DNA of 55,770 nucleotides from a virus, in IMG/VR virus record IMGVR_UViG_3300034198_022322, positions 1 to 55,770 of that record; one strand, written 5' to 3'. The translations under genes were made by a program, and so were the position numbers. Below, in pieces: positions 3,016-55,603 of this stretch. The notes under the pieces are model-generated. The model did no database searches. It was not told the origin of the DNA and worked only from the letters and a program-made list of their open reading frames with translations. Every line of letters begins with the position of its first letter. Position 1 is the stretch's first letter.

Positions 3016-3770
3016 GACCTGATGGTAGTCCAGCCGCGTACGGTAAGACCAGCGCAATCATCGGCCTCCTCGACCCTCACAAAGTCAGCCTTCTTAGGGA
3101 CCCCGCAGACGCATTGTCTGGGACTGGCGAGCCTGCCCTGATGCCCCAAGCCCCGATAGTCCGTGGGGGCGTGACGAATCTTGATCTGACAGGGGTGCCG
3201 ATCGCCGCAACTGCGGCACTCCCACGTCTCGACGCAGACAGCTGGCAAGGTTGGGACTCCCTCGCCGCTCGGCAGCGTGCAGCAGCAATCCTGGTCGCTT
3301 CGGGCGGCGCAGATGCAGAATGGTGCGGAGGTGAGCTCCAAGCTTGTAGGATCGAACGAGATACCGAAGTTCATGGGACCGTTCACGCAAATGAACGGGC
3401 TCTCCGGGGTTTCGTCGTTCACATGCAGATGGGTATTTTCACGGTGCTCCAAAGGCACTCCCAGCGCGCGCATGGTGCGATCAGGGTTGTCCAGCAGGCT
3501 TTGCCACTTCGGCGTGACCGGGCGAATGGCTACCCACTTACCGACGCGGTAGTCGTCGCCCCACCCCATGCGGGGGCCGCCGGCGATGTGCCACTCAACC
3601 TTCACCTTGTCGGCACTGACGATTTGGGCTTGGCTGCTGCCCATACGATCCAGCCGCTTCTGAAGCATAGCTTGGGACCGCGCGATACCGGCCGCCTCAA
3701 TCAGCTCAAACCCCTCCGGCAGCCCAGCCGCCGACAACCTTACGTCAGTGAGTGAAGTGTTCGGTAGCAT
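3012..3770 (-). CDS. Cys-rich protein of unknown function upstream of beta'
   Basis: 252 residues, sharing ATGA with the beta' start, so translation of the two is probably coupled. The first 120 residues look globular (IAGGPRMGWGDDYRVG, HLHVNDETPESPF). The C-terminal half is rich in cysteine: FCICAA, DCCCTLP, WECRSCGDRHPC and CVCGVP between about residues 150 and 235, which suggests one or two metal sites. I do not recognise the family. Its position directly before a beta' gene that lacks its own zinc-binding N-terminus makes it a candidate clamp or transcription accessory protein, but that is inference from position and cysteines only. Confidence 0.72.
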   Translation of the reverse strand: MLPNTSLTDVRLSAAGLPEGFELIEAAGIARSQAMLQKRLDRMGSSQAQIVSADKVKVEWHIAGGPRMGWGDDYRVGKWVAIRPVTPKWQSLLDNPDRTMRALGVPLEHRENTHLHVNDETPESPFICVNGPMNFGISFDPTSLELTSAPFCICAARSDQDCCCTLPSGEGVPTLPAVCVETWECRSCGDRHPCQIKIRHAPTDYRGLGHQGRLASPRQCVCGVPKKADFVRVEEADDCAGLTVRGWTTIRS

Positions 3771-3906
3771 AATGGCTGTAACCTCTCAATTCGAGCAGGC
3801 AGGCGCAAGCCTTTTGTAGATTGACGGCCCGTTGACACGTCGGTAATTTGGACTTCCCGACGTCTTGTCTGACCTGCTGCGCGACGGGCCAAGCGCGCAG
3901 CAGCAT
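3745..3906 (-). CDS. Small protein (53 aa), probable gene
   Basis: ATG at 3906 opens a 53-codon frame that fills the otherwise empty 150 bp between its neighbours and overlaps the next start by 26 bp. The product has natural-looking composition with a Cys pair (LPTCQRAVNLQKACACLLEL, then RGYSHYATEHF). No SD is seen, as is usual here. It carries two internal inverted repeats: CTGCTGCGCG/CGCGCAGCAG at 3871-3901, and ACGTCGG...CCCGACGT near 3837-3863. The hairpins could alternatively mean the stretch is regulatory. No function assigned. Confidence 0.45.
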   Translation of the reverse strand: MLLRAWPVAQQVRQDVGKSKLPTCQRAVNLQKACACLLELRGYSHYATEHFTH

Positions 3907-3920
3907 TCACTCAGACAAAA

Positions 3921-24846: not shown

Positions 24847-26787
24847 TCAGCTGCCGTCGGTCGGTTCAAGACCAATTCGTTTCCTGAGGCGCTCCGGAAG
24901 CTCAGCTCTGGAAGCCAGAATGTCCTGCAGCTCGTTGTTTGTCAGACCGAGAAGCACGCGTACGCTGTCCTCCATCGCCGGGTTGATCACCGGTCTCGGT
25001 AGTTTGATCCTACCCCATCTATCGCCCGTGACGATGCGCGAGTCAAATAGGCCTCCTTGGATGGGCTCCAGCGTGTTGATGTTCACGATGTCCCCATTGT
25101 CGACATCGATCGGCTGCTCTGCCTCCAGATCCTTGTCGGTGAACGGAGCGAGCCTATAGCGGCCCTTTCCTACTTCGCGTGTGCTCATGCCGGCGCCGCT
25201 CAGCAGCGCCCTGAACTTGTTCCAGACAAACGGTACGCCCGGCTTCGGGAGAGGCTTGCCTGCCCGCAGATCGCGCCAGTACTGGTCGTTGCGGGCTCCG
25301 CGTAGCGTGGTGTGCTCTCGCATGAGGGCGTAGGCTCCGCTGGAGAGCGCAGCGTAGTTCTCCAGACCGGAGAATCGCTTGGCCTGCGCGTTCTCGCCGC
25401 CGCCTCTGGCTGGTTGCTCCGACTGGTCGTAGCTGCCTGTACCGCGCGCCGAAAGCTTTCCTTCGCTCGTATGATGTAGCTTGTGGATGAAGCCGTAGCC
25501 GACCGTCACAGGATTCGTCAGGAAGCGGTTGGCGACCGGATCGTAGATGCGCTCCTTGGATTTGACGCCTGCCTCAGCTTCCTGTTGCGCAATGAAGTCG
25601 TTCCAGCTCTGTCCCTTCAGATACGATGGGATCTTGAGCGGTTCGCCTTTGGCCTTGGCGACCTTGCCGAGCCGGATCTCATGCTGCGAAGCCGGGTTGG
25701 CCCGGGACACCAGAGACAGCGGGTTCAGCAGCACATCGAGAGCCTGCCCATCTTCCGTGCGCGGCATCTGGTCGTCTGGGATCACCCTCGAGACCGTGGC
25801 TTTGGCTCCTTGCCGCAAAACGATCTTGTCGCCTTCCGAGGTCGGCTTGGTGTAGCGCAGCACGACCTTTGTACCATTTTTGGTACGCCTCGCGTCGATG
25901 ACTTCAGCCGGTTGTGAGCCGTCCCAGGTGATGGATGAGTCTCTGCGCGCTTGGCGCAAGGACTTGGAAAGTTTGCCGATGTTGGCTCCGGCGGAGGAAA
26001 GTGTGCGCGGCATGGACCCGAGGATAACCGGATCGCCTGGCTGCAACACCGTGCCCGGTTTGACCATTCCGTCGTTCTCTATGGTACCCAGCTGCTCCTT
26101 TGAGAAGCGGGTAGGGAACAACGCCCGGAAATGGTTGAGGTCCTGCTTGAGGTTGTCGCTTTGATCCTGCGTGACGACCTTGTACTGCACCGCGGCGAGA
26201 CGCTTGGCGAAGCTTTCGCTGATCGGTACTGCGTCATCCATGGAGAAGCCCTTCCACGGCACAAGGCCGATCCTGGCGTTCAGACCCATGTTCTGGACGC
26301 CGTTGTCGTCGGTGTAGCTCGAAGCTGCCACCACTTGGTTGGGCTTGAACACAGAGCCCTTCTGCACCAGCGCCCGCGACGTAATTCCGGACTTCTGGTT
26401 GAAGCTCTGGTTGTTGTAGAGATCGAGATCTGCTTTGTCTCCGTCGTCATACTGCACGCGGATGTAGTCCGGCGTCACGTCTAGGACACGACCGCCTTTC
26501 TTGGCGCGGACGGCACCTAGCTTTTCGCCAGCGAGCTCATCAAAGCTGCGTCCCAGCTTATCGCTCGTGTCCAAGTTCTGGACCAAAGGGGCCTCGCCGT
26601 TTTCCACGGCCAAGGCCTGGTTTACGAATCGCCCTCCGTAGAACAGTCGGGGCGGCTGCACCGCTGACTGCAACGGGATTTGATTGGTGTGCGATCCGAA
26701 CTGCCGGGAGGCGTCGGTCAGCTCAAAGTCGATGTCGTCGTCCGCGTCATCGACTTCTTCCAGACGGTTCTTTCTGACTACGTGCAT
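24847..26787 (-). CDS. rpoB: RNA polymerase beta subunit, C-terminal fragment
   Basis: 646 residues equivalent to the C-terminal half of bacterial beta. Readable blocks: VRAKKGGRVLDVTPDYIRV (about 103-121), GLVPWKGFSMDDAVPISES (about 184-202; cf. PWxGYNFEDAIVISE), EGDKIVLRQGAKATVSRVIP and DDQMPRTEDGQALDVLLNPL (cf. GDKMAGRHGNKGVVS...MPyLxDGxPxDIVLNPLG, both catalytic-cleft Lys retained), VGYGFIHKLHHTSEGKLSAR and GTGSYDQSEQPARGGGENAQ (cf. VGYMYMLKL.H...DK.HARSTG). It lies 3 bp after the GNAT-fusion gene and about 12 kb from the N and middle fragments, from which it is separated by virion genes. Confidence 0.94.
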   Translation of the reverse strand: MHVVRKNRLEEVDDADDDIDFELTDASRQFGSHTNQIPLQSAVQPPRLFYGGRFVNQALAVENGEAPLVQNLDTSDKLGRSFDELAGEKLGAVRAKKGGRVLDVTPDYIRVQYDDGDKADLDLYNNQSFNQKSGITSRALVQKGSVFKPNQVVAASSYTDDNGVQNMGLNARIGLVPWKGFSMDDAVPISESFAKRLAAVQYKVVTQDQSDNLKQDLNHFRALFPTRFSKEQLGTIENDGMVKPGTVLQPGDPVILGSMPRTLSSAGANIGKLSKSLRQARRDSSITWDGSQPAEVIDARRTKNGTKVVLRYTKPTSEGDKIVLRQGAKATVSRVIPDDQMPRTEDGQALDVLLNPLSLVSRANPASQHEIRLGKVAKAKGEPLKIPSYLKGQSWNDFIAQQEAEAGVKSKERIYDPVANRFLTNPVTVGYGFIHKLHHTSEGKLSARGTGSYDQSEQPARGGGENAQAKRFSGLENYAALSSGAYALMREHTTLRGARNDQYWRDLRAGKPLPKPGVPFVWNKFRALLSGAGMSTREVGKGRYRLAPFTDKDLEAEQPIDVDNGDIVNINTLEPIQGGLFDSRIVTGDRWGRIKLPRPVINPAMEDSVRVLLGLTNNELQDILASRAELPERLRKRIGLEPTDGS

Positions 26788-38897: not shown

Positions 38898-40025
38898 TCA
38901 ATCGGGTAGTTTGAGTGTTTTGCCTACCAGATCCGAAGGGCTGACCCACTGCTTCTTACCGGTCTTCCGGTTGAGCATGACTTGGTAGACGCGACCATCA
39001 GAACCTATTCTGGTCCCGTGTGCAAGTCTAACATCGATACCTGCCTTGTCCGAATTGCCAGTCCAGAAGCCTGGATGGTTCGACTTACCTCGCACGTACA
39101 GCATTCCACCCGGGACAGTCGCGCAGTAGACCATACCGTTGAAGCTTTCTGAGCTCCAGCACTCCGGTAACAGACGCTGACTTTCGAGTCTGAGCCCGGA
39201 TGTTTCGTAACTTTTATCGAGCAAGTCTAGCGTCGGACTCGTAGGGATGTAGATGTCAGCTCCCGACAGGTCCGAAGCGAATGTCACAGACAGCTCGAAC
39301 GCTTCAGGGTCGCGCTTGAATACCACTCGATGTGACGGCGTCACCATCATGTGAATGTTGGATGAGGAACCCACAATCATCGGGCCGGAATACAATTCGC
39401 GCACCACCCTGGACGCGCGATGCCACTCAAATCGGCCAGACACGTTGCAGGCAAAAACGTCGTCGTCCTTGACCGCGTCCCATCTCACCCAGCCGCGCTT
39501 TGTGTAGACCTCGGAATCCCCGGGCATGCATTCTGGGCCAGAAATGGGATCCACGAATCCGAACTGCGAAGCATGAACGGATTGCATTGAGAGCGTGATC
39601 GCGCTTGGGTCGCCAACACCTCCAGGTCCCATCTTTGTCACGCGCCGCTTCTGCTCCAGGATGTGCATGGGATTGATTTCCTCCAGCGCCGGAGCCAGCG
39701 GGTTGCCTGCGAGGTAGCCCACAGTGTAGGGCGCGAACACATCGGCGCCCATGGGTGTGAGGCTCTTGGATCGACTCAAGCGGCCCATGAGGGTTCGGAG
39801 TGTACGCCCGTGATCCAGCTTCACACGTTCCGCCATCAGGCGGTCTGGGGTGTGGATTCGGTCGTTCGGCAAACTGTCCCGCTCGTCCGGCTCGGCCAAC
39901 CCTCGGTTGACCGCCAGCAGCTTTTCGGTAGCGGACAGCAAGCCGTCCAGACCTACCGAAGCATACGTTTCGTGCTCGTCGTCGTCGGCGAGGTATCTGT
40001 GGTGCGCGGTCGGGTTCGTGGTCAT
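38898..40025 (-). CDS. rpoB: RNA polymerase beta subunit, middle fragment with mini-intein
   Basis: 375 residues. The extein carries the beta fork/Rif-like region: HILEQKRRVTKMGPGGVGDP (cf. HKRRLSALGPGGL) and VHASQFGFVDPISGPE (cf. VHPTHYGRVCPIETPEG), residues about 121-165. A 159-residue intein follows (166-324), then SDKAGIDVRLAHGTRIGSDG. It shares ATGA with the beta-N gene, so the two fragments are probably made together. The corresponding region in bacteria lines the RNA exit and Rif pocket. The C-terminal fragment is encoded 12 kb away. Confidence 0.92.
   Translation of the reverse strand: MTTNPTAHHRYLADDDEHETYASVGLDGLLSATEKLLAVNRGLAEPDERDSLPNDRIHTPDRLMAERVKLDHGRTLRTLMGRLSRSKSLTPMGADVFAPYTVGYLAGNPLAPALEEINPMHILEQKRRVTKMGPGGVGDPSAITLSMQSVHASQFGFVDPISGPECMPGDSEVYTKRGWVRWDAVKDDDVFACNVSGRFEWHRASRVVRELYSGPMIVGSSSNIHMMVTPSHRVVFKRDPEAFELSVTFASDLSGADIYIPTSPTLDLLDKSYETSGLRLESQRLLPECWSSESFNGMVYCATVPGGMLYVRGKSNHPGFWTGNSDKAGIDVRLAHGTRIGSDGRVYQVMLNRKTGKKQWVSPSDLVGKTLKLPD
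39054..39530 (-). other. Mini-intein in RNA polymerase beta (159 aa)
   Basis: Begins CMPGDSEVYTKRGWVRWDAV (block A, Cys1) and ends with block F/G NGMVYCATVPGGMLYVRGKS and FWTGN, then Ser+1. Block B is NIHMMVTPSHRVVF (TxxH). There is no LAGLIDADG or HNH motif, so it is a minimal splicing element. It interrupts beta immediately after ISGPE, the equivalent of bacterial IETPE. Confidence 0.9.
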
Positions 40026-48423: not shown

Positions 48424-51400
48424 TTATGACACCAGAAGCTTCCAATTTCTGAATGCCAGCAGCTTCTTGAGACGCTCTGGAGTCGGGTGCCAGTTCACGT
48501 CATCCAACTGCGCTTGTTCTTCTGCGCTCGGCCGGGTGGACCAACGGTAGTTGAACTCGTTGTCGACCCCGTACTGCAGCACACGCTTTCCGAACTCGTC
48601 GTTGTACTCCCACGTGTTGATTTCCGACATCACGATCGTGTGGATCTTCGCCACGACAAACCGCTCTTCCAGCGGGCAGAGAGTCACGAGGCTGTCGTAC
48701 AAGCAGGTCATCGGGCGAGCCTTCATCCCCAGTTGACGATACAGGGCCAGCGCGTAGTTGCACGCTCTTGCCGACGTAGCGCCCACAGACTCCTGCATGG
48801 GGTAGTTTCTGAGCTCACGACCCAGCGCGGACTCGATCGAGTTGCGCGTGCGCCAGCCAACCCCGGAGTTCGCCGAGTGCGTGTTGCAGTGGCAAATTCG
48901 CCCGGAGACCGCGCGGTAGTATCCCTTGGTCTTTGGGACGTTGCCCATCTCTTCCAAGAACTCAGAAGCCCGGGGCTGGCGTGCCGCGATGGCGTCCAGT
49001 CCCTTCTGCCCAGTACCTGGCTCAGGTTTGACCCCTGTGTCCGACTCGATCTTTCGCTCCAGCGAAGCAGGGGAGGCACCATATGCCGAAGAGTTGGATA
49101 CCAGCACGCCACTACAGGTAAACCTGTGCCGCGGACCGGCATTCAGCAAGTCATACGTTTCCGCCTCCCCGCAACAGTACTGCTCGCATGCCTCGTCAAA
49201 ATCTCGACGTTCGAGAGCCCCATCTTCATGAGGCCCAGAATGGTCTTCCAAGTGTACAGAACGTGAGGGTGGTCCACTAGAAACTGATTTGCCACTCGGC
49301 AGTTGAGATGAGCTCCCAACTGCCTGTTCATCAGGTTGGTTGATCGATCGACCAACCTCAGGTTTTCCGGGCAGTAGTCCCCGTCGTTGTCCTTCCTGTC
49401 GAAGTCCCCCTCCATGATCTGCTGATCTGTGAATTGAAGCGCCCAAGCTATGAACGCCTCCTTGTGCGGAAACTTGACCTTGATTCCTCGACCCAGATAC
49501 CGATGCGACGACACATGCGTGTCCGTCTCGCAACGCTGTTTCATTGCTGCAAACCTTCGCGTCAGAGACGAGATTACCTGAGGATCTCTCCCCGGGTATT
49601 TCACACGGCTCCGCTGAGGGTTCTGACACTGACACTTTGACGACTTTCCTGTCTCCATGTTCCTCAGTTCCTTCCAGCGCTCCTTCCCGCAGTGCAAGCA
49701 CTGGGTCAAGACGTAGAAGTAGCCCGATCCCCTGCGTTCCAGCGAACTCGGTAGAAGCCTCAGACCAGGCAACCGCAACGCTTTGACCCTCTGACGCAGT
49801 GCGGACAAGGGTAAGCGATTCGGCGCACGCCTCTTCGAATTTGACTTTGCCCCGCTCGACTGTCCACACATCGTGGAGCCGGGTAGCACGCAGTCCTTGA
49901 TATTCGATGATTTTCTTTCGGCCTGAGTAGATGACGCCTTCATGACGCACCCACTCTACACCGTCCCATACGAGGTCGTCAACCTTGATGTCACAGATGG
50001 CTACGGAGCCTCGATCGCGCGTGAGAACCATAGAATCACCGTCCACGCAGAAGTTCAATACTTTCCCAGCATTACGATGAACCTTGTTAATCATCTCTTC
50101 TCGTGGACGCTCGTAGGTGCGCTCCACAACTGACCAATGGATATCATAACCCCTATGTTTGACGGTACCATCAGGGTTACGAGCCAGATCGTCTTCAGAG
50201 ACTTTTCCGAGGAACTTTCCGTCCTTCCAAGCAGCCATAACGTACTCAGGATTCTGCTTATGCAACGGAATGCCTGTTTCGGAAGGATCGGAGTAGCACA
50301 CACGTACATACTCCACGCCAAACTTCTTTGGGTCTTTCAGCTCTGCCCATTCAGGATCTGGATCCTGCAAGATACGTATTAAATCCTCATCTCCAGAGAT
50401 AACACCTAATCCGTGCATTTCTGCTGTTTTATAGTCTGATTCACATAACACATAGTTATGTGGAGAGTTAATACATGATCTAATAGATGGCAAACTCTTC
50501 TCATCACAACCAACCCAGCGCATCAGTTCCTCCGGCAGCTCACCCTTCGAATGAGCCTCGTTGATCACCCGCACCACCGTCTTGGCAATTCGAGCATTCA
50601 CGTACGCCGGATAGTTCAGGGTGTTCGGAGCCCATGAGCGGGGACGTGATGTTCCGGTGCAGCTCATCTGGCCGTGGATGCGGCCGTCTGACGCCACCCA
50701 CTGATGCAGCCCGTGCTCCTCGATCTCCTCCTCGCCTGTCTCCGGATCGATCCAGACGTCAGCCTCCTTCAGGAACGCCTTGCAGAGGTTGCCGACCGCA
50801 TTGAGGTTCAGAAGCTCGTCTACGGTCGGGCACTGCTCGCTGAGGATCTGCAGCGTCTGCTTGTCCACAGCCGGCGTGTAGAGCTTCTGACGATCCGGAG
50901 GAAGCTCCAGCACCTTCTCCCACGCCATGGACGGCAGACCCTTCGCTTTCTGGTTCGTCGTCTTGATCGGCTCCAGGTCCTCCACATCGAACAGCCAGGT
51001 GCGCATCTGGTCAGCTGACCGGATGTTGAAGTTGGGGCTGTCGTAGAGGTGCTGCAGCATCTTCTGCCACTGAGGCAGGTCAGAGAGCGGTACGTGCGGC
51101 TTGAGGAGGTTGTAGGCCTCTTCGGTGGTCTCCTTGGCGTAAACCTCCCGCGAGAGCTTCAAAGCGTCCCTGAGGGGTATCAGGGCCATCAGGCGGTTGG
51201 CTACGTGAGCCTTCGCCTCCGAGTGGATTCGATGCTTCAGGTGGACCTCCAGTTGCTGCCTGACGAAGTGGAACAACCGCCTCAGGTCATCCATCAGCGG
51301 AATGTCCATCGGAAGCCCTCCCACACAGAACTCGGTGAACACGTCCGTGACGAACGGGTTGTGGAGTTTTTTGTAGTACTCCCAGAGCTGCTGAGCCTGG

Positions 51401-52731
51401 AGTTGCCGCTTGATGTGCGGGTAGGCTCTCAATGGTACGATGACGTCCCGGGCACCGTAGGGGTGGAGGATCGCTGAGGGGATGTAGCCGTAGCCGTCCT
51501 TGCAGAGGGCGCGGTTCTCGCGCTTCCACATGAGCAGGTCCTGGTTGTACAGCCCCAGCGTCGTGTACTTCATCCCGATGCCGCGCTCCAGCTTGAGCTC
51601 TGAGGCCTCGTCTACCGTCTGCTGGGCGAACTCCGTGTCCATGACGCAACGCTGGTACACGTCCAGATTGAGCCACGTGAGCATCCACGGGGAGTCAGCA
51701 GAGAAGTGGTGACCCACGTAGCGGACGTCCTTCCGGTTGCAGAAGCGCCCCAGCAGCTTGCCGATGTAGGCGTACCGCTTCCGCTCAAAGGCGTCCGGGA
51801 GGTCATCCTCGAGCTCCTCGTCGATCTGGAAGCTCCATTCGTTCTGCTCGTCCCGAAACTCCACCACGACAGCGTCGCTCTCGGTCCAGGCAAACTGAAT
51901 CGATCGGAGGTTCCCATCCACGTGCGTCCTGCCGTGCCACTCGCAGTCCACCGACAGGATTTTGTTCCCATTGTCGTCTGTGATGCCCGGCCAGGGGTCT
52001 GCCTCCTCCATCAGGCTCAGCCAGTCCCGCAGCTGCTGCTCGCTGCGCAAGACCTCGAACCGGACAGGGACGTCGTTGATGTCGCCCCCTTCCAGAATTC
52101 GCCGCTTCCGCTCCACCTCCTGAAAGTCGACCCGGAACACCTCGTAGAGGTCGGGTTTTCCAATCAGAGCACCGGGGGAGTGGGTGACGTAGAGGTGGGC
52201 GTTCGCCTCGGAGGACCAGAACCAACCGCCGTGGGCGTCGTCGAATCCGATCTTCGTGTCGCTGAGCATGTCGAAGACCGGTTTGCCCAAGCAGACGATG
52301 ATCTTCGGCTTCACCCGTTTGATCTCGTCCATCAGGACAGGCAGGCCCCAGTTCAGAACCTTCTTGGAGGGCTTTGAACGTTTCGTCCTCGGGATCAGCC
52401 ATTTGCACAGCGCCGTGTAGTAGCATTTGTCCAGATCAAGGTGGCAGCGCAAGGCGACATCCTTGATCATGCCTGTCGGTCCGCGGAGGTATTCGGCCGG
52501 CTGCCTCATGGTGTAGCCGAACACAGTCTGCTTCATCGTGGTGGCTTCCTCCTCGTCTACCGAGGTGGTCACGAACATCACGTCGTACTCGATCTGGTCT
52601 TCGATCGGCGCCCTGCCTGCCACATAGAAGATCCCATCAATGTGGCGGTTGCGGGTCAGCGTCTTCGGACAACTTTCCCAGTCGTCGTAGTCCGGTTCCT
52701 TTTCGTCAAGTGCTTGGAATTTCTCTGCCAT
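48424..52731 (-). CDS. Family A DNA polymerase fused to UDG-like and 3'-5' exonuclease domains, intein-interrupted
   Basis: 1435 residues (1116 after splicing). Residues about 45-215 resemble the family 4/5 uracil-DNA glycosylase fold (EYLRGPTGMIKDVALRCHLD, CYYTALCKWLIP, KPKIIVCLGKPVFDML, YVTHSPGALIG). Exo I is ILSVDCEWHG (D262/E264), exo II region YVGHHFSADSPWM, exo III YGARD (425-429). Pol motif A is CESDYKTAEMHG (D766). Motif B is RNAGKVLNF (886-894), continuing after the intein as SSAYG. Motif C is CLYDSLV (1344-1350), with YDS in place of HDE. It overlaps the helicase stop by 26 bp. The replicative polymerase of the phage. Confidence 0.94.
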   Translation of the reverse strand: MAEKFQALDEKEPDYDDWESCPKTLTRNRHIDGIFYVAGRAPIEDQIEYDVMFVTTSVDEEEATTMKQTVFGYTMRQPAEYLRGPTGMIKDVALRCHLDLDKCYYTALCKWLIPRTKRSKPSKKVLNWGLPVLMDEIKRVKPKIIVCLGKPVFDMLSDTKIGFDDAHGGWFWSSEANAHLYVTHSPGALIGKPDLYEVFRVDFQEVERKRRILEGGDINDVPVRFEVLRSEQQLRDWLSLMEEADPWPGITDDNGNKILSVDCEWHGRTHVDGNLRSIQFAWTESDAVVVEFRDEQNEWSFQIDEELEDDLPDAFERKRYAYIGKLLGRFCNRKDVRYVGHHFSADSPWMLTWLNLDVYQRCVMDTEFAQQTVDEASELKLERGIGMKYTTLGLYNQDLLMWKRENRALCKDGYGYIPSAILHPYGARDVIVPLRAYPHIKRQLQAQQLWEYYKKLHNPFVTDVFTEFCVGGLPMDIPLMDDLRRLFHFVRQQLEVHLKHRIHSEAKAHVANRLMALIPLRDALKLSREVYAKETTEEAYNLLKPHVPLSDLPQWQKMLQHLYDSPNFNIRSADQMRTWLFDVEDLEPIKTTNQKAKGLPSMAWEKVLELPPDRQKLYTPAVDKQTLQILSEQCPTVDELLNLNAVGNLCKAFLKEADVWIDPETGEEEIEEHGLHQWVASDGRIHGQMSCTGTSRPRSWAPNTLNYPAYVNARIAKTVVRVINEAHSKGELPEELMRWVGCDEKSLPSIRSCINSPHNYVLCESDYKTAEMHGLGVISGDEDLIRILQDPDPEWAELKDPKKFGVEYVRVCYSDPSETGIPLHKQNPEYVMAAWKDGKFLGKVSEDDLARNPDGTVKHRGYDIHWSVVERTYERPREEMINKVHRNAGKVLNFCVDGDSMVLTRDRGSVAICDIKVDDLVWDGVEWVRHEGVIYSGRKKIIEYQGLRATRLHDVWTVERGKVKFEEACAESLTLVRTASEGQSVAVAWSEASTEFAGTQGIGLLLRLDPVLALREGALEGTEEHGDRKVVKVSVSEPSAEPCEIPGERSSGNLVSDAKVCSNETALRDGHACVVASVSGSRNQGQVSAQGGVHSLGASIHRSADHGGGLRQEGQRRGLLPGKPEVGRSINQPDEQAVGSSSQLPSGKSVSSGPPSRSVHLEDHSGPHEDGALERRDFDEACEQYCCGEAETYDLLNAGPRHRFTCSGVLVSNSSAYGASPASLERKIESDTGVKPEPGTGQKGLDAIAARQPRASEFLEEMGNVPKTKGYYRAVSGRICHCNTHSANSGVGWRTRNSIESALGRELRNYPMQESVGATSARACNYALALYRQLGMKARPMTCLYDSLVTLCPLEERFVVAKIHTIVMSEINTWEYNDEFGKRVLQYGVDNEFNYRWSTRPSAEEQAQLDDVNWHPTPERLKKLLAFRNWKLLVS
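49093..50049 (-). other. Intein in DNA polymerase motif B (319 codons)
   Basis: Begins CVDGDSMVLTRDRGSVAICD (Cys1), block B GLRATRLHDVWTVERG. It ends with AETYDLLNAGPRHRFTCSGV and LVSN, then Ser+1, inside the O-helix motif (KVLNF/SSAYG). Between the splicing halves the intein frame stays open for about 200 codons but reads Gly/Ser/His/Arg-rich text with no endonuclease. The endonuclease is in another frame of the same DNA (next entry). Confidence 0.9.
49143..49943 (-). CDS. HNH homing endonuclease nested out of frame within the polymerase intein
   Basis: 266 codons maximum, offset by one from the polymerase frame and wholly inside the intein. Conserved content starts near residue 70: QCLHCGKERWKELRNMETGK with CQC at 104-106, LTRRFAAMKQRCETDTHVSS (cf. 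RWxxMKxRCxNPxxxxYxxY), YLGRGIKVKF, then the HNH core EGDFDRKDNDGDYCPENLRL (178-197). A C-terminal helix (TILGLMKMGLSNVEILTRHA) follows. The true start may be internal (ATG at residue 25 or a TTG near 57). This family usually appears free-standing or in group I introns. Confidence 0.8.
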   Translation of the reverse strand: MKASSTQAERKSSNIKDCVLPGSTMCGQSSGAKSNSKRRAPNRLPLSALRQRVKALRLPGLRLLPSSLERRGSGYFYVLTQCLHCGKERWKELRNMETGKSSKCQCQNPQRSRVKYPGRDPQVISSLTRRFAAMKQRCETDTHVSSHRYLGRGIKVKFPHKEAFIAWALQFTDQQIMEGDFDRKDNDGDYCPENLRLVDRSTNLMNRQLGAHLNCRVANQFLVDHPHVLYTWKTILGLMKMGLSNVEILTRHASSTVAGRRKRMTC

Positions 52732-55603
52732 TACGGTGTTTGGGCTGGGAGCGCACCTTGCGGTAGAACTCCATTACGTGGGGGTCGACGATTACGTCGA
52801 AGTCCGTGGACGTCAACGTCAGACCTTCCGGAGACCGAAGTCGCGACATCGCCACGTACACGTGACCCGGCGCAAACGATCGGCTGAGGTTGATCGTGCA
52901 ATCGTCAAGGCTGATGCCCTGGCTGTTGTGGTTGACGAATCCGTTGCCGACAAATGCGTGACCATCGGGTACGCAAATGTCCCGCATGTCGCCGTCTACC
53001 GTCTCGATGGCTGCGATCTCGTCCAAAAAGCAGCCATGCTCCGCCTCTTCAAATAAGGCGCCAAAAGAGTTTGAGACCGTTTTACACAGCGGCAAATCGC
53101 GCTGCATGGCGGCTAGGTGCGCGTCGGACAGACCGCACGAAGCATTCGCCACTCTGCTCAAAAACCTGGCCCAGTGACTGAACTCGCCGAAACCGACGCC
53201 GCGGACGTGCGGGTAAACGGTTCTGAGGGATTGCTGCCAGGTTTTCGCCAATTTTGCACCGAGGTCGGCCGGGTAGAAGCCGGCCTGGACCTTTGGTACT
53301 TTCTGAGACCGTCGGGTCTTGACCGTTAACGCCTTCGCTTTTCTTTGGATCGAGAACCCGACAGAAAGCTCGAATTTCTTCACGTCCGGTCCTGTAATGT
53401 TGATCCTCCAAGCGTCCTTCATACGTCCGAGCGTTCCGATGATTCCCAGATTCAGCAGCATCACGTGCACTTCGCGCAGCAGTTTTTCTGACGCCGAAGT
53501 GACGTGCACGCACGAGTTAACGCCTCCGTCAGCATCAAAGTAGCCTTGAATGAACGACTGCTGCTGAGATTTTGTCCCCTTCAGGATTACATGAGGTACG
53601 CATTTCTCGCGAGCTGTGGCATACGAAAGACCAATGGACAACAGCCAATTCCGGACCGGCCAGCTGTGCACATAAGCGGTCTTTGCTTTCGTTTTAGACT
53701 TCGACTTGATCGACGCCTTGAGTCCAAACTCGGACCACATGATCTTGACGAACCGGCGGACTACGCACGGATCCATCGAAGTAACGTCCACCCGGGCATC
53801 TCTTTGGTCAGACTGACATCCATCACCCACCAACATCCCGAGCAGCCAGGCGAGATCATTCGAGATCACCGAAGGGAACTGACAAGGCTTGGATTTTTTC
53901 CCAATTTCGACCGAGATAGGCGGCAAACTTCCATCACCAAAAGCCTGAGTGTTGCCCCGCATTCTCAGCGCGTCCCCTACCCTCAGATCGGGAGCTAGAA
54001 CCCACTCCATGCCGCAACCGTCCGTCCTCATCAAAGGATGCCTCACGCTGCACGTCAGCTGGTAGCCGCGGCGCGTTGTGATTCGGAGCCCGGCCTCGCT
54101 CACTCCCACGAAAGGTTCGCAGGTAGACTTGAATTCGGTCAGGCCGCAAACCTCAGGCATTTGAGGGCTGGTACAAACCTCATCGATCGTGAGAAGGCCT
54201 GAAGAGGTCGGCAGCAAAGTATTCTTGTCGACGCACTTATGAATGGTGATCGCGGTAGCCGGGATCACAGGGTACTGGACGTAGCGGTGCTCCAGCGATC
54301 TGTCGTCCTGCGAGGTTCCATTTTCGTTGTCCAAGCAGAAGCTCATCCGCTCAAGCTTCACTCGCACTTCCTCCTGATCGTGCGTGGCGGGAATTCTCAC
54401 AATCATCGCGGGTCCGATCATTCCTTCAAAGAATCCCTTGGTGCCGTTTACGTACTGACCTTGGAAGTCGTTGACGCTGAAGAGCACCGGCATGCCAGGG
54501 CGAAGGTTCAGGATTTCGCGCACAGGCTTGTTCCCGATGATCTTTTCCTTGAGGTTTTGAGGCGTCTCCCAGTCCTTGAGCGCCTTGACCGGGCTCAGGA
54601 TCATTTCACCCTCCAGCGTGACCGTAGGGCCTTCGTACCAATCCAGCGCCAGCTGGTTGATCGAATCTGCCTCCTTGTTGGTAGAGACCAAGAACGAGGC
54701 TCTGCGGACGTCGTCTTCCGTCTGCGGCCGCACGAACCGTGAGACATACTCACGCTCCTCGGCCAACAGAGGCTCACCGACCCTCCGGCGGTTCAAGAAG
54801 TTTGCGAACTTCTCATCGGCCTGGCGGAACACCTTGGTCAGCTCGACGGTGCGGATCTCTGCTCGCTCCCAAGATGGGCTGAGGAATGCCCAGTCTGGTC
54901 GGCTGCCATTGTGGCGATCAACCGGGGGAAGCTGGGCCATGTCCCCGATGAAGATCATCTGGATACCGCCGAACGGTTCGTCTTTGTCCCGCACCGTCCG
55001 GAAAAAGAAATCCAGGTAGCCCAGAAGGCCCACACCTGCGATCATCGACACCTCGTCGAGGATCAAGGCCTCCGTCGACCGGATGCGCGCTTTGACGCCT
55101 TCCCGAGCCTTGGACATGTTGTCCTTTGCCGTGCTCCAAGCGCTGTAGGTGCGCAGATACACAGCCCTGGCCTGTTCCTCAGTCATGTCCGCTGGAGGCG
55201 TGTTGTAGGAGCTGAACACGGGTCCCGTGCGGATACCAGCCCACGAGTGGATGGTCTTGCCCTTGAGGTGGCTTCCGGCGATTCCAGTCGAGGCGGTCAC
55301 GTAAGCGTTGGTTCCGCGGTAATCGAACTCCGGGATCAGGATGTGCTTCACGAACGTGGTCTTGCCCACGCCGGCACCGCCAGTGATAAACACGTTGGAG
55401 TGGTCGCAGAAGATGCTCTCAAAGATGTCGATGTGCTCGTCCGTCAGCTCAATGCCAGCTTCCGACTTGTAATAGGCGACGCGTTCGCGCACCTCGCTCT
55501 GACTCAGTGAAATACGCTTCGGGCGCGAGCTCTGGTTGTCTGCGAGTCTCGACACGTCAAACTTGATGCCGCCTGTGGCGACTGCGAATGGGTCAAAATT
55601 CAT
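52706..55603 (-). CDS. PIF1/Dda-type superfamily 1B helicase with intein
   Basis: 965 residues (528 after splicing). Motifs: Walker A VFITGGAGVGKTTF (71-84), Ia YVTASTGIAGSHLKGKTIHS, II ALILDEVSMIAG (179-190), III FIGDMAQLPPVDRH, IV-type FLVSTNKEADSIN, V AITIHK (451-456) completed after the intein as SQGISLDDC, and VI HVYVAMSRLRSPEGL. Moves 5'-3' on single strands in known relatives and probably serves the replication fork with the adjacent polymerase. It shares ATGA with the upstream partial gene. Confidence 0.94.
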   Translation of the reverse strand: MNFDPFAVATGGIKFDVSRLADNQSSRPKRISLSQSEVRERVAYYKSEAGIELTDEHIDIFESIFCDHSNVFITGGAGVGKTTFVKHILIPEFDYRGTNAYVTASTGIAGSHLKGKTIHSWAGIRTGPVFSSYNTPPADMTEEQARAVYLRTYSAWSTAKDNMSKAREGVKARIRSTEALILDEVSMIAGVGLLGYLDFFFRTVRDKDEPFGGIQMIFIGDMAQLPPVDRHNGSRPDWAFLSPSWERAEIRTVELTKVFRQADEKFANFLNRRRVGEPLLAEEREYVSRFVRPQTEDDVRRASFLVSTNKEADSINQLALDWYEGPTVTLEGEMILSPVKALKDWETPQNLKEKIIGNKPVREILNLRPGMPVLFSVNDFQGQYVNGTKGFFEGMIGPAMIVRIPATHDQEEVRVKLERMSFCLDNENGTSQDDRSLEHRYVQYPVIPATAITIHKCVDKNTLLPTSSGLLTIDEVCTSPQMPEVCGLTEFKSTCEPFVGVSEAGLRITTRRGYQLTCSVRHPLMRTDGCGMEWVLAPDLRVGDALRMRGNTQAFGDGSLPPISVEIGKKSKPCQFPSVISNDLAWLLGMLVGDGCQSDQRDARVDVTSMDPCVVRRFVKIMWSEFGLKASIKSKSKTKAKTAYVHSWPVRNWLLSIGLSYATAREKCVPHVILKGTKSQQQSFIQGYFDADGGVNSCVHVTSASEKLLREVHVMLLNLGIIGTLGRMKDAWRINITGPDVKKFELSVGFSIQRKAKALTVKTRRSQKVPKVQAGFYPADLGAKLAKTWQQSLRTVYPHVRGVGFGEFSHWARFLSRVANASCGLSDAHLAAMQRDLPLCKTVSNSFGALFEEAEHGCFLDEIAAIETVDGDMRDICVPDGHAFVGNGFVNHNSQGISLDDCTINLSRSFAPGHVYVAMSRLRSPEGLTLTSTDFDVIVDPHVMEFYRKVRSQPKHRNGREIPST
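52925..54235 (-). other. LAGLIDADG intein in helicase motif V (437 aa)
   Basis: Begins CVDKNTLLPTSSGLLTIDEV (Cys1) after AITIHK; block B RRGYQLTCSVRHPLM; LAGLIDADG helices LAWLLGMLVGDG and IQGYFDADGGVN. It ends ICVPDGHAFVGNGFVNHN followed by Ser of SQG. Complete splicing and endonuclease parts in a single frame. Confidence 0.95.

Follow-up and report, generated by a model that had tools for sequence, protein, structure and literature searches.

Inteins are generally taught as one polypeptide in which the splicing and the endonuclease parts travel together. The closest published precedent that we found for the arrangement described below is the ShiLan domain, in which an out-of-frame HNH gene lies in an insertion in a mycobacteriophage methylase and for which splicing domains were not found by the authors (PMC11855218). 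Homing of the ShiLan domain and of the Pacc40 gp60 insertion was inferred from their patchy distribution (Arsenault, Gosselin, Gogarten 2025, PMC11855218), and another ShiLan-type methylase was announced in 2025 (PMC12613952). For overlapping frames, PMC11855218 cites a preprint (Gosselin et al. 2025, Actinobacteriophage Inteins, Non-Canonical Architecture) and Gorbalenya 1998 ('Non-canonical inteins'); these may describe related architectures and may also bear on the present case.

In this study, we analysed a stretch of viral DNA of 55,770 nucleotides (the window), which corresponds to positions 1 to 55,770 of the IMG/VR record IMGVR_UViG_3300034198_022322. The initial annotation of the window had proposed that an HNH endonuclease gene is nested out of frame inside a splicing intein of a polymerase. 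Our reading, to which we assign a probability of about 0.82, is that the locus carries a mobile intein with an endonuclease encoded by a gene of its own, which is overprinted in another frame and translated from a start within the intein, with splicing, HNH translation, cleavage, and homing being inferred.

Results

The polymerase and its intein

A family A DNA polymerase precursor with an intein was encoded at positions 48424-52731 on the minus strand (1435 aa; a UDG-like N-terminal domain, a 3'-5' exonuclease, and pol A). The ORF was single and uninterrupted over its full length, and hence the two-ORF host gene of a split intein with a free-standing HEG was not present. Residues 95-190 of the polymerase formed a UDG-superfamily domain fused at the N-terminus.

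The intein (49093-50049, minus strand; 319 aa) had exact ends, with Cys1 at 50049 and Asn319 at 49093 followed by Ser+1, and it was inserted in the PolA O-helix motif between KVLNF and SSAYGAS. The N-terminal splicing region (49786-50049, minus strand; residues 1-88) contained Cys1 and block B TRLH, and the C-terminal splicing region (49093-49206, minus strand; residues ~282-319) ended in YDLLNAGPRHRFTCSGVLVSN, followed by S. The linker between them (49207-49785, minus strand; residues ~89-281) had no predicted structure and low conservation, and its DNA was shared with the HNH core. In the AlphaFold model of the intein frame, pLDDT was ~97 at residues 1-80, >90 at residues 290-319, and <50 for most of residues 88-267, and the best Foldseek matches of the model were the inteins gp41-1, Npu DnaE, and Ssp DnaB (E 2e-4). 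From the model, a Hint fold interrupted by ~190 disordered residues is confidently predicted.

Cys1, the N-terminal nucleophile of a class 1 Hint domain, was present in the window and in 126/127 elements of the relatives described below, and block B TxxH was present in all 127. The terminal Asn was found in all elements, with C, S, or T at the +1 position in 126/127. The penultimate residue was Ser in the window intein and His in 116/127 relatives; a penultimate His is usual in inteins, not universal, and so is not defining. None of the 35 inteins of this family tested with Pfam was recognised. The conserved motifs and the predicted Hint fold bear out the proposal of intact N- and C-terminal splicing blocks in the polymerase frame, and the region between them was indeed open and of low information, being disordered in the model and little conserved over its ~190 residues.

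The HNH protein in the other frame

Positions 49143-49943 on the minus strand, read in the +1 frame relative to the intein, encoded an HNH-family protein of 266 aa, which lay entirely inside the intein and started with the ATG at 49941-49943. The out-of-frame position of the HNH gene was thereby confirmed, and the coordinates first given for both the intein and the HNH gene proved exact. The product matched the profile phrog_374 'HNH endonuclease' with an E of 3.6e-20; it was not recognised by Pfam and NCBIfam profiles, and a PDB sequence search did not find HNH relatives.

AlphaFold gave a pLDDT of >90 over most of residues 50-240 of the HNH frame. The conserved core (49314-49721, minus strand) contained C82, C85, C104, and C106, which form zinc-type Cys pairs according to the model and the alignment, and a beta-beta-alpha motif (E179-183, E195-199, and H200-207 in the model) with D182-R183 and N194. 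Nothing significant was obtained by Foldseek with this model; the HNH enzyme PacI emerged only in a second look (VIA) as the top structural match of the core (Z 6.6, 86 residues, 2.9 A), with a Z under the safe-match level. The D-R pair and the N were invariant in the HNH family, in nested and free-standing proteins alike, at the place of the canonical catalytic His. Since free-standing relatives also have the D-R motif, it characterises the family and is not a sign of decay; since the usual catalytic His is replaced, HNH activity is not assured.

Census of relatives

Every reading frame of the fetched loci was scanned with profiles of the intein N-part, the intein C-part, and the HNH. At least 128 distinct elements were found, with the HNH at +1 in 95, at +2 in 20, and absent in 13. 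In-frame HNH homologues, which would have refuted the initial annotation, numbered 0 among the 128, so that a canonical in-frame endonuclease was found by these profiles in none of the 115 HNH-bearing relatives. The mini-inteins without a nested HNH that the initial annotation had suggested searching for do exist (13/128; 107-141 aa). Its premise that an intein endonuclease is normally in frame holds for textbook inteins and fails for the intein family of the window, where out of frame is the rule. Most of the elements were found by HNH queries; at least 45 were obtained from bacterial genome contigs by the intein N part alone, and this HNH-independent set comprised 34 elements at +1, 1 at +2, 10 mini-inteins, and 0 in frame. 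All these counts are lower bounds and not frequencies, and the elements are related to one another. The carriers belonged to Bacillota, Actinomycetota, Pseudomonadota, Spirochaetota, Synergistota, and one Deltaproteobacterium.

The nearest relative (L001; 48% HNH identity, 40% G+C vs 58% in the window) had a layout identical to that of the window, with a 319-residue intein and the HNH ATG at the homologous spot. The two-frame layout was also present in L013-L017, in the GenBank records of Gardnerella vB_Gva_AB1, Streptococcus Javan255, Caulobacter GB2A, Pseudomonas MR14, and Salmonella Ent1, and in the records of EBPR siphovirus 2 and Vibrio phage 97.13. Where annotated, the sampled GenBank carriers were named DNA polymerase only, and the Ent1 record mentions an intein encoding splicing domains. 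Because contigs of 40-61% G+C and several GenBank phages share the layout, indel errors or compensating frameshifts, previously held to be the main alternative, cannot explain it.

Several individual loci showed further features. In L022 (Streptococcus Javan422), the nested HNH at 3640-3912 was truncated to an ORF of 91 aa and the intein was shortened to 168 aa; this element is an intermediate in HNH loss. The intein frame looked broken in very few HNH-bearing elements, such as L035 (IMGVR_UViG_638275545_000001) and L293, and the apparent break in L035 may be either a sequencing error or real decay. L036 and L039 each had two inteins with a nested HNH, one at +2 and one at +1, and in L036 both lay in one polymerase ORF. 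The nested HNH ORFs of L014 (5935-7212) and of L016 and L017 (5833-6891) were 353-426 aa long with repeated C-terminal modules, perhaps DNA-binding repeats, and the intein frame was open over its whole length. L015 (2370-7175) encoded a different PolA with apparently three inteins, only one of which had a nested HNH.

Other inteins were observed in the window itself. The PIF1-like helicase (52706-55603, minus strand) carried an intein with a conventional in-frame LAGLIDADG endonuclease (LAGLIDADG_3, E 2.8e-17), and both intein architectures thus adjoin in one phage, in the PIF1 helicase and the DNA polymerase. An RNA polymerase beta subunit fragment (Rpb2 domain 3) was encoded at 38898-40025 on the minus strand, and an apparent mini-intein of ~158 aa was seen at roughly 39045-39518, with ISGPE before CMPGDS at its start and TGN before SDKAG at its end; it was recognised by eye, without a profile match. 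Domain 6 of an RNA polymerase beta subunit (E 4.9e-43) was found in a separate ORF at 24847-26787 on the minus strand, so that this phage apparently has its own multisubunit RNA polymerase, the beta subunit of which is split.

Selection on both frames

When the HNH codons of the window were shuffled synonymously, 10.2 stops were expected in the polymerase frame, 0 were observed, and 0/1000 shuffles were free of stops. Over the HNH core, no intein-frame stop occurred in any of the 81 elements of the viral set (81/81), for which shuffles expect 10.9 stops at +1 and 4.7 at +2. As controls, 146 free-standing HNH genes had a mean of 16.9 stops in the equivalent +1-type frame, with none open, and a mean of 9.4 in the +2-type frame, with one open, at a contig end. 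In +1 elements, a polymerase-frame stop arises only from an HNH codon that ends in T before AA, AG, or GA. Such a wobble T was found at 0/4961 sites in the nested +1 elements vs 2680/7695 (35%) in the free-standing HNH genes, and at 0/52 sites in the HNH of the window vs 28% elsewhere in the same gene. A chance second ORF was ruled out by the shuffles, the free-standing HNH controls, and the wobble-T test.

Substitutions were analysed in 55 gapless elements of 310 aa. Intein residues were conserved at codons 1-100 and ~283-310, and HNH residues were conserved from ~60 to 300. The changes at main codon positions 1/2/3 were distributed as 0.27/0.26/0.47 upstream of the HNH start and as 0.70/0.17/0.12 in the HNH core; there, main position 1 coincides with the wobble position of the HNH codons. 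This pattern indicates that the nuclease is selected as a protein and that the intein frame there is merely kept open; together with the conservation, it also indicates that both edges of the overlap (block B and blocks F/G) are coded for two frames. Between the window and L001, the intein-frame identity was 50-80% at codons 21-80, 80% near the end, and 10-40% between, and the HNH-frame identity was mostly 25-60% throughout. As judged from these codon comparisons, purifying selection on the HNH frame was shown.

Start of the HNH gene

The first HNH starts all lay inside the intein. Among the 95 +1 elements, an upstream stop in the HNH frame was present within the element in 94, and an ATG start was available, as the first start, in 91. 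The mean Shine-Dalgarno pairing of the +1 class was -7.7 kcal/mol vs -5.9 with synonymous intein codons, and a strong Shine-Dalgarno sequence preceded the start in several +1 elements, for example AAAGGAGGT in L019; enrichment was not clear in the +2 class. Counts of Tyr and His codons at the start were excluded as circular. In the window (49944-49958, minus strand), the HNH-frame stop TAG (49956-49958) was followed by the Shine-Dalgarno-like GAGTGGGTG right before the HNH ATG, with an anti-SD pairing of -8.7 kcal/mol. Taken alone against synonymous codons, this site was no better than chance (rank 30 of 100). The upstream stops, the internal ATGs, and the mean Shine-Dalgarno pairing suggest internal initiation as the most likely route by which the HNH would be translated, in the absence of expression data. 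The proposal of a linker in one frame and a nuclease with its own internal start in the other is supported by these comparative data, HNH translation being inferred.

At the other end, the HNH stop lay past the end of the intein in 31/95 +1 elements, and in 30 of them it did so by 10-31 nt, in the C-extein (e.g. L019, L208, and L234); hence the last nuclease codons overlap the polymerase itself.

Empty sites, loss, and captures

Intein-less polymerase sites were found in Salmonella phage ER20 compared with the carrier Ent1 and in Streptococcus phage Javan181 compared with the carrier Javan255, both gapless on the joined flanks, with nucleotide identities of 85% and 89%, respectively. The evidence of exact removal rests on these two pairs of relatives and not on the window's own polymerase. 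Mini-inteins were scattered over the intein tree, where well supported branches forced at least 4 changes, indicating that the HNH was lost repeatedly. A quick HNH tree contained three nested groups, namely the window, Streptococcus, and Gardnerella at +1, Jerseyvirus at +2, and a Caulobacter-type group at +1 within free-standing HNHs; these groups, one of them inside the free-standing HNHs, indicate at least two captures. In the gapless 310-aa +1 class, element identity tracked the identity of the flanking polymerase, and therefore no recent horizontal transfer was caught. The top element-vs-flank outliers were rejected as a transfer signal because they trace to L255, in which the downstream polymerase flank does not match.

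Taken together, we consider it fairly probable that an HNH gene was captured out of frame at least twice (in the large +1 group to which the window belongs and the Caulobacter-type +1 group, with the Jerseyvirus-type +2 group perhaps a third), that the out-of-frame arrangement is the stable normal state of this intein family, with ~190 codons kept open only for polymerase read-through, and that the endonuclease is thereby expressed independently of protein splicing.

Discussion

Alternatively, ribosomes translating the intein frame could undergo a programmed frameshift and produce a fusion of the N-part of the intein to the HNH; as the two frames are both open for most of the element's length, the product of such a shift would be long. 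We regard this as very unlikely, since nearly every +1 element has an HNH-frame stop inside the intein ahead of the first start (no systematic search for slippery sites was made), since ATG starts, several behind a strong Shine-Dalgarno sequence, are at hand, and since a fusion would use up part of the splicing domain. It is unlikely as well that the HNH is translated as a relic or in a non-homing role, for example as a nickase or a DNA-binding protein. The D-R in place of the canonical catalytic His, the lack of an observed recent horizontal jump, and the recurrent HNH loss would fit such a role, whereas the strong constraint on the HNH frame at the protein level, the close relatives with exact empty sites, and the sharing of the D-R motif with a free-standing phage HNH family argue against it.

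A further possibility is that the element is an RNA intron, or an insertion that is not spliced at all, as in the ShiLan type, where an open insertion devoid of splicing domains contains an out-of-frame HNH (PMC11855218). This is scarcely credible here, where the splicing motifs are intact and conserved, a Hint fold is predicted, and mini-inteins persist at 107-141 aa without the HNH; an RNA intron was dismissed because intron families were not matched in an Rfam search and the host frame is open. Practically no weight is left for an ordinary in-frame HNH intein hidden by sequencing indels or two compensating frameshifts. One older record, L035, looks broken, but the same layout, with the intein frame unbroken, recurs in 115 distinct HNH-bearing elements from many projects, and stop-forming wobble T is absent; L001 and the phage records in GenBank already refute this explanation.

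According to the reading that we prefer, a mobile intein with an overprinted endonuclease gene, the polymerase would be translated straight through the intein, and the Hint domain, formed by the N and C parts, would excise itself from the polymerase. The polymerase-frame reading of the HNH DNA would serve as a disordered linker that is discarded with the intein. Ribosomes would also enter at the internal ATG and translate the +1 frame into a separate HNH protein, which would cut intein-less polymerase alleles of co-infecting phages, and repair of the cut would copy the intein with its nested gene into the empty site. In this manner, the HNH probably spreads the intein. Splicing, in vivo HNH translation, cleavage of empty-site DNA, and homing are inferred from knowledge of the families, and no expression, splicing, or cleavage data are available.

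In >100 phages and prophages across several bacterial phyla, the splicing and endonuclease functions share one stretch of DNA but are read in different frames, and hence this is a widespread and mostly unannotated kind of mobile element. It offers numerous naturally replicated cases of long overlaps between genes on one strand, in which each frame has a clear function; such cases are rare and would be useful for studying how overlaps originate and are maintained. Searches for inteins or homing endonucleases that translate only one frame miss the whole class.

Compared with known systems, the window element resembles the ShiLan domain and the Pacc40 gp60 insertion in being an insertion in a phage gene that is open in the host frame and has an HNH-type gene in another frame. 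The host-frame reading of ShiLan lacks splicing motifs and is thought to be retained in the methylase, whereas that of the window element forms an intein whose splicing blocks are conserved; in addition, elements of the window type lie in a DNA polymerase, occur in many more phages, and use two frame offsets. With canonical full-length inteins, such as PI-SceI and the PIF1-helicase intein of the window, the element shares the Hint domain, an endonuclease-coding slot between the N and C parts, and a homing cycle that is expected to include endonuclease loss and mini-inteins; the endonuclease of the former is part of the spliced polypeptide, whereas that of the window element is encoded by a gene of its own, which lies in another frame and has a separate start. 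Free-standing phage HNHs (phrog_374 and phrog_3377) belong to the same protein family and have the same D-R motif as the nested HNH, but no second frame is kept open in their genes. Group I introns with an endonuclease gene also have an own-start endonuclease gene nested in a splicing element; unlike them, the window element is inferred to splice at the protein level, with its host frame open and no Rfam intron match.
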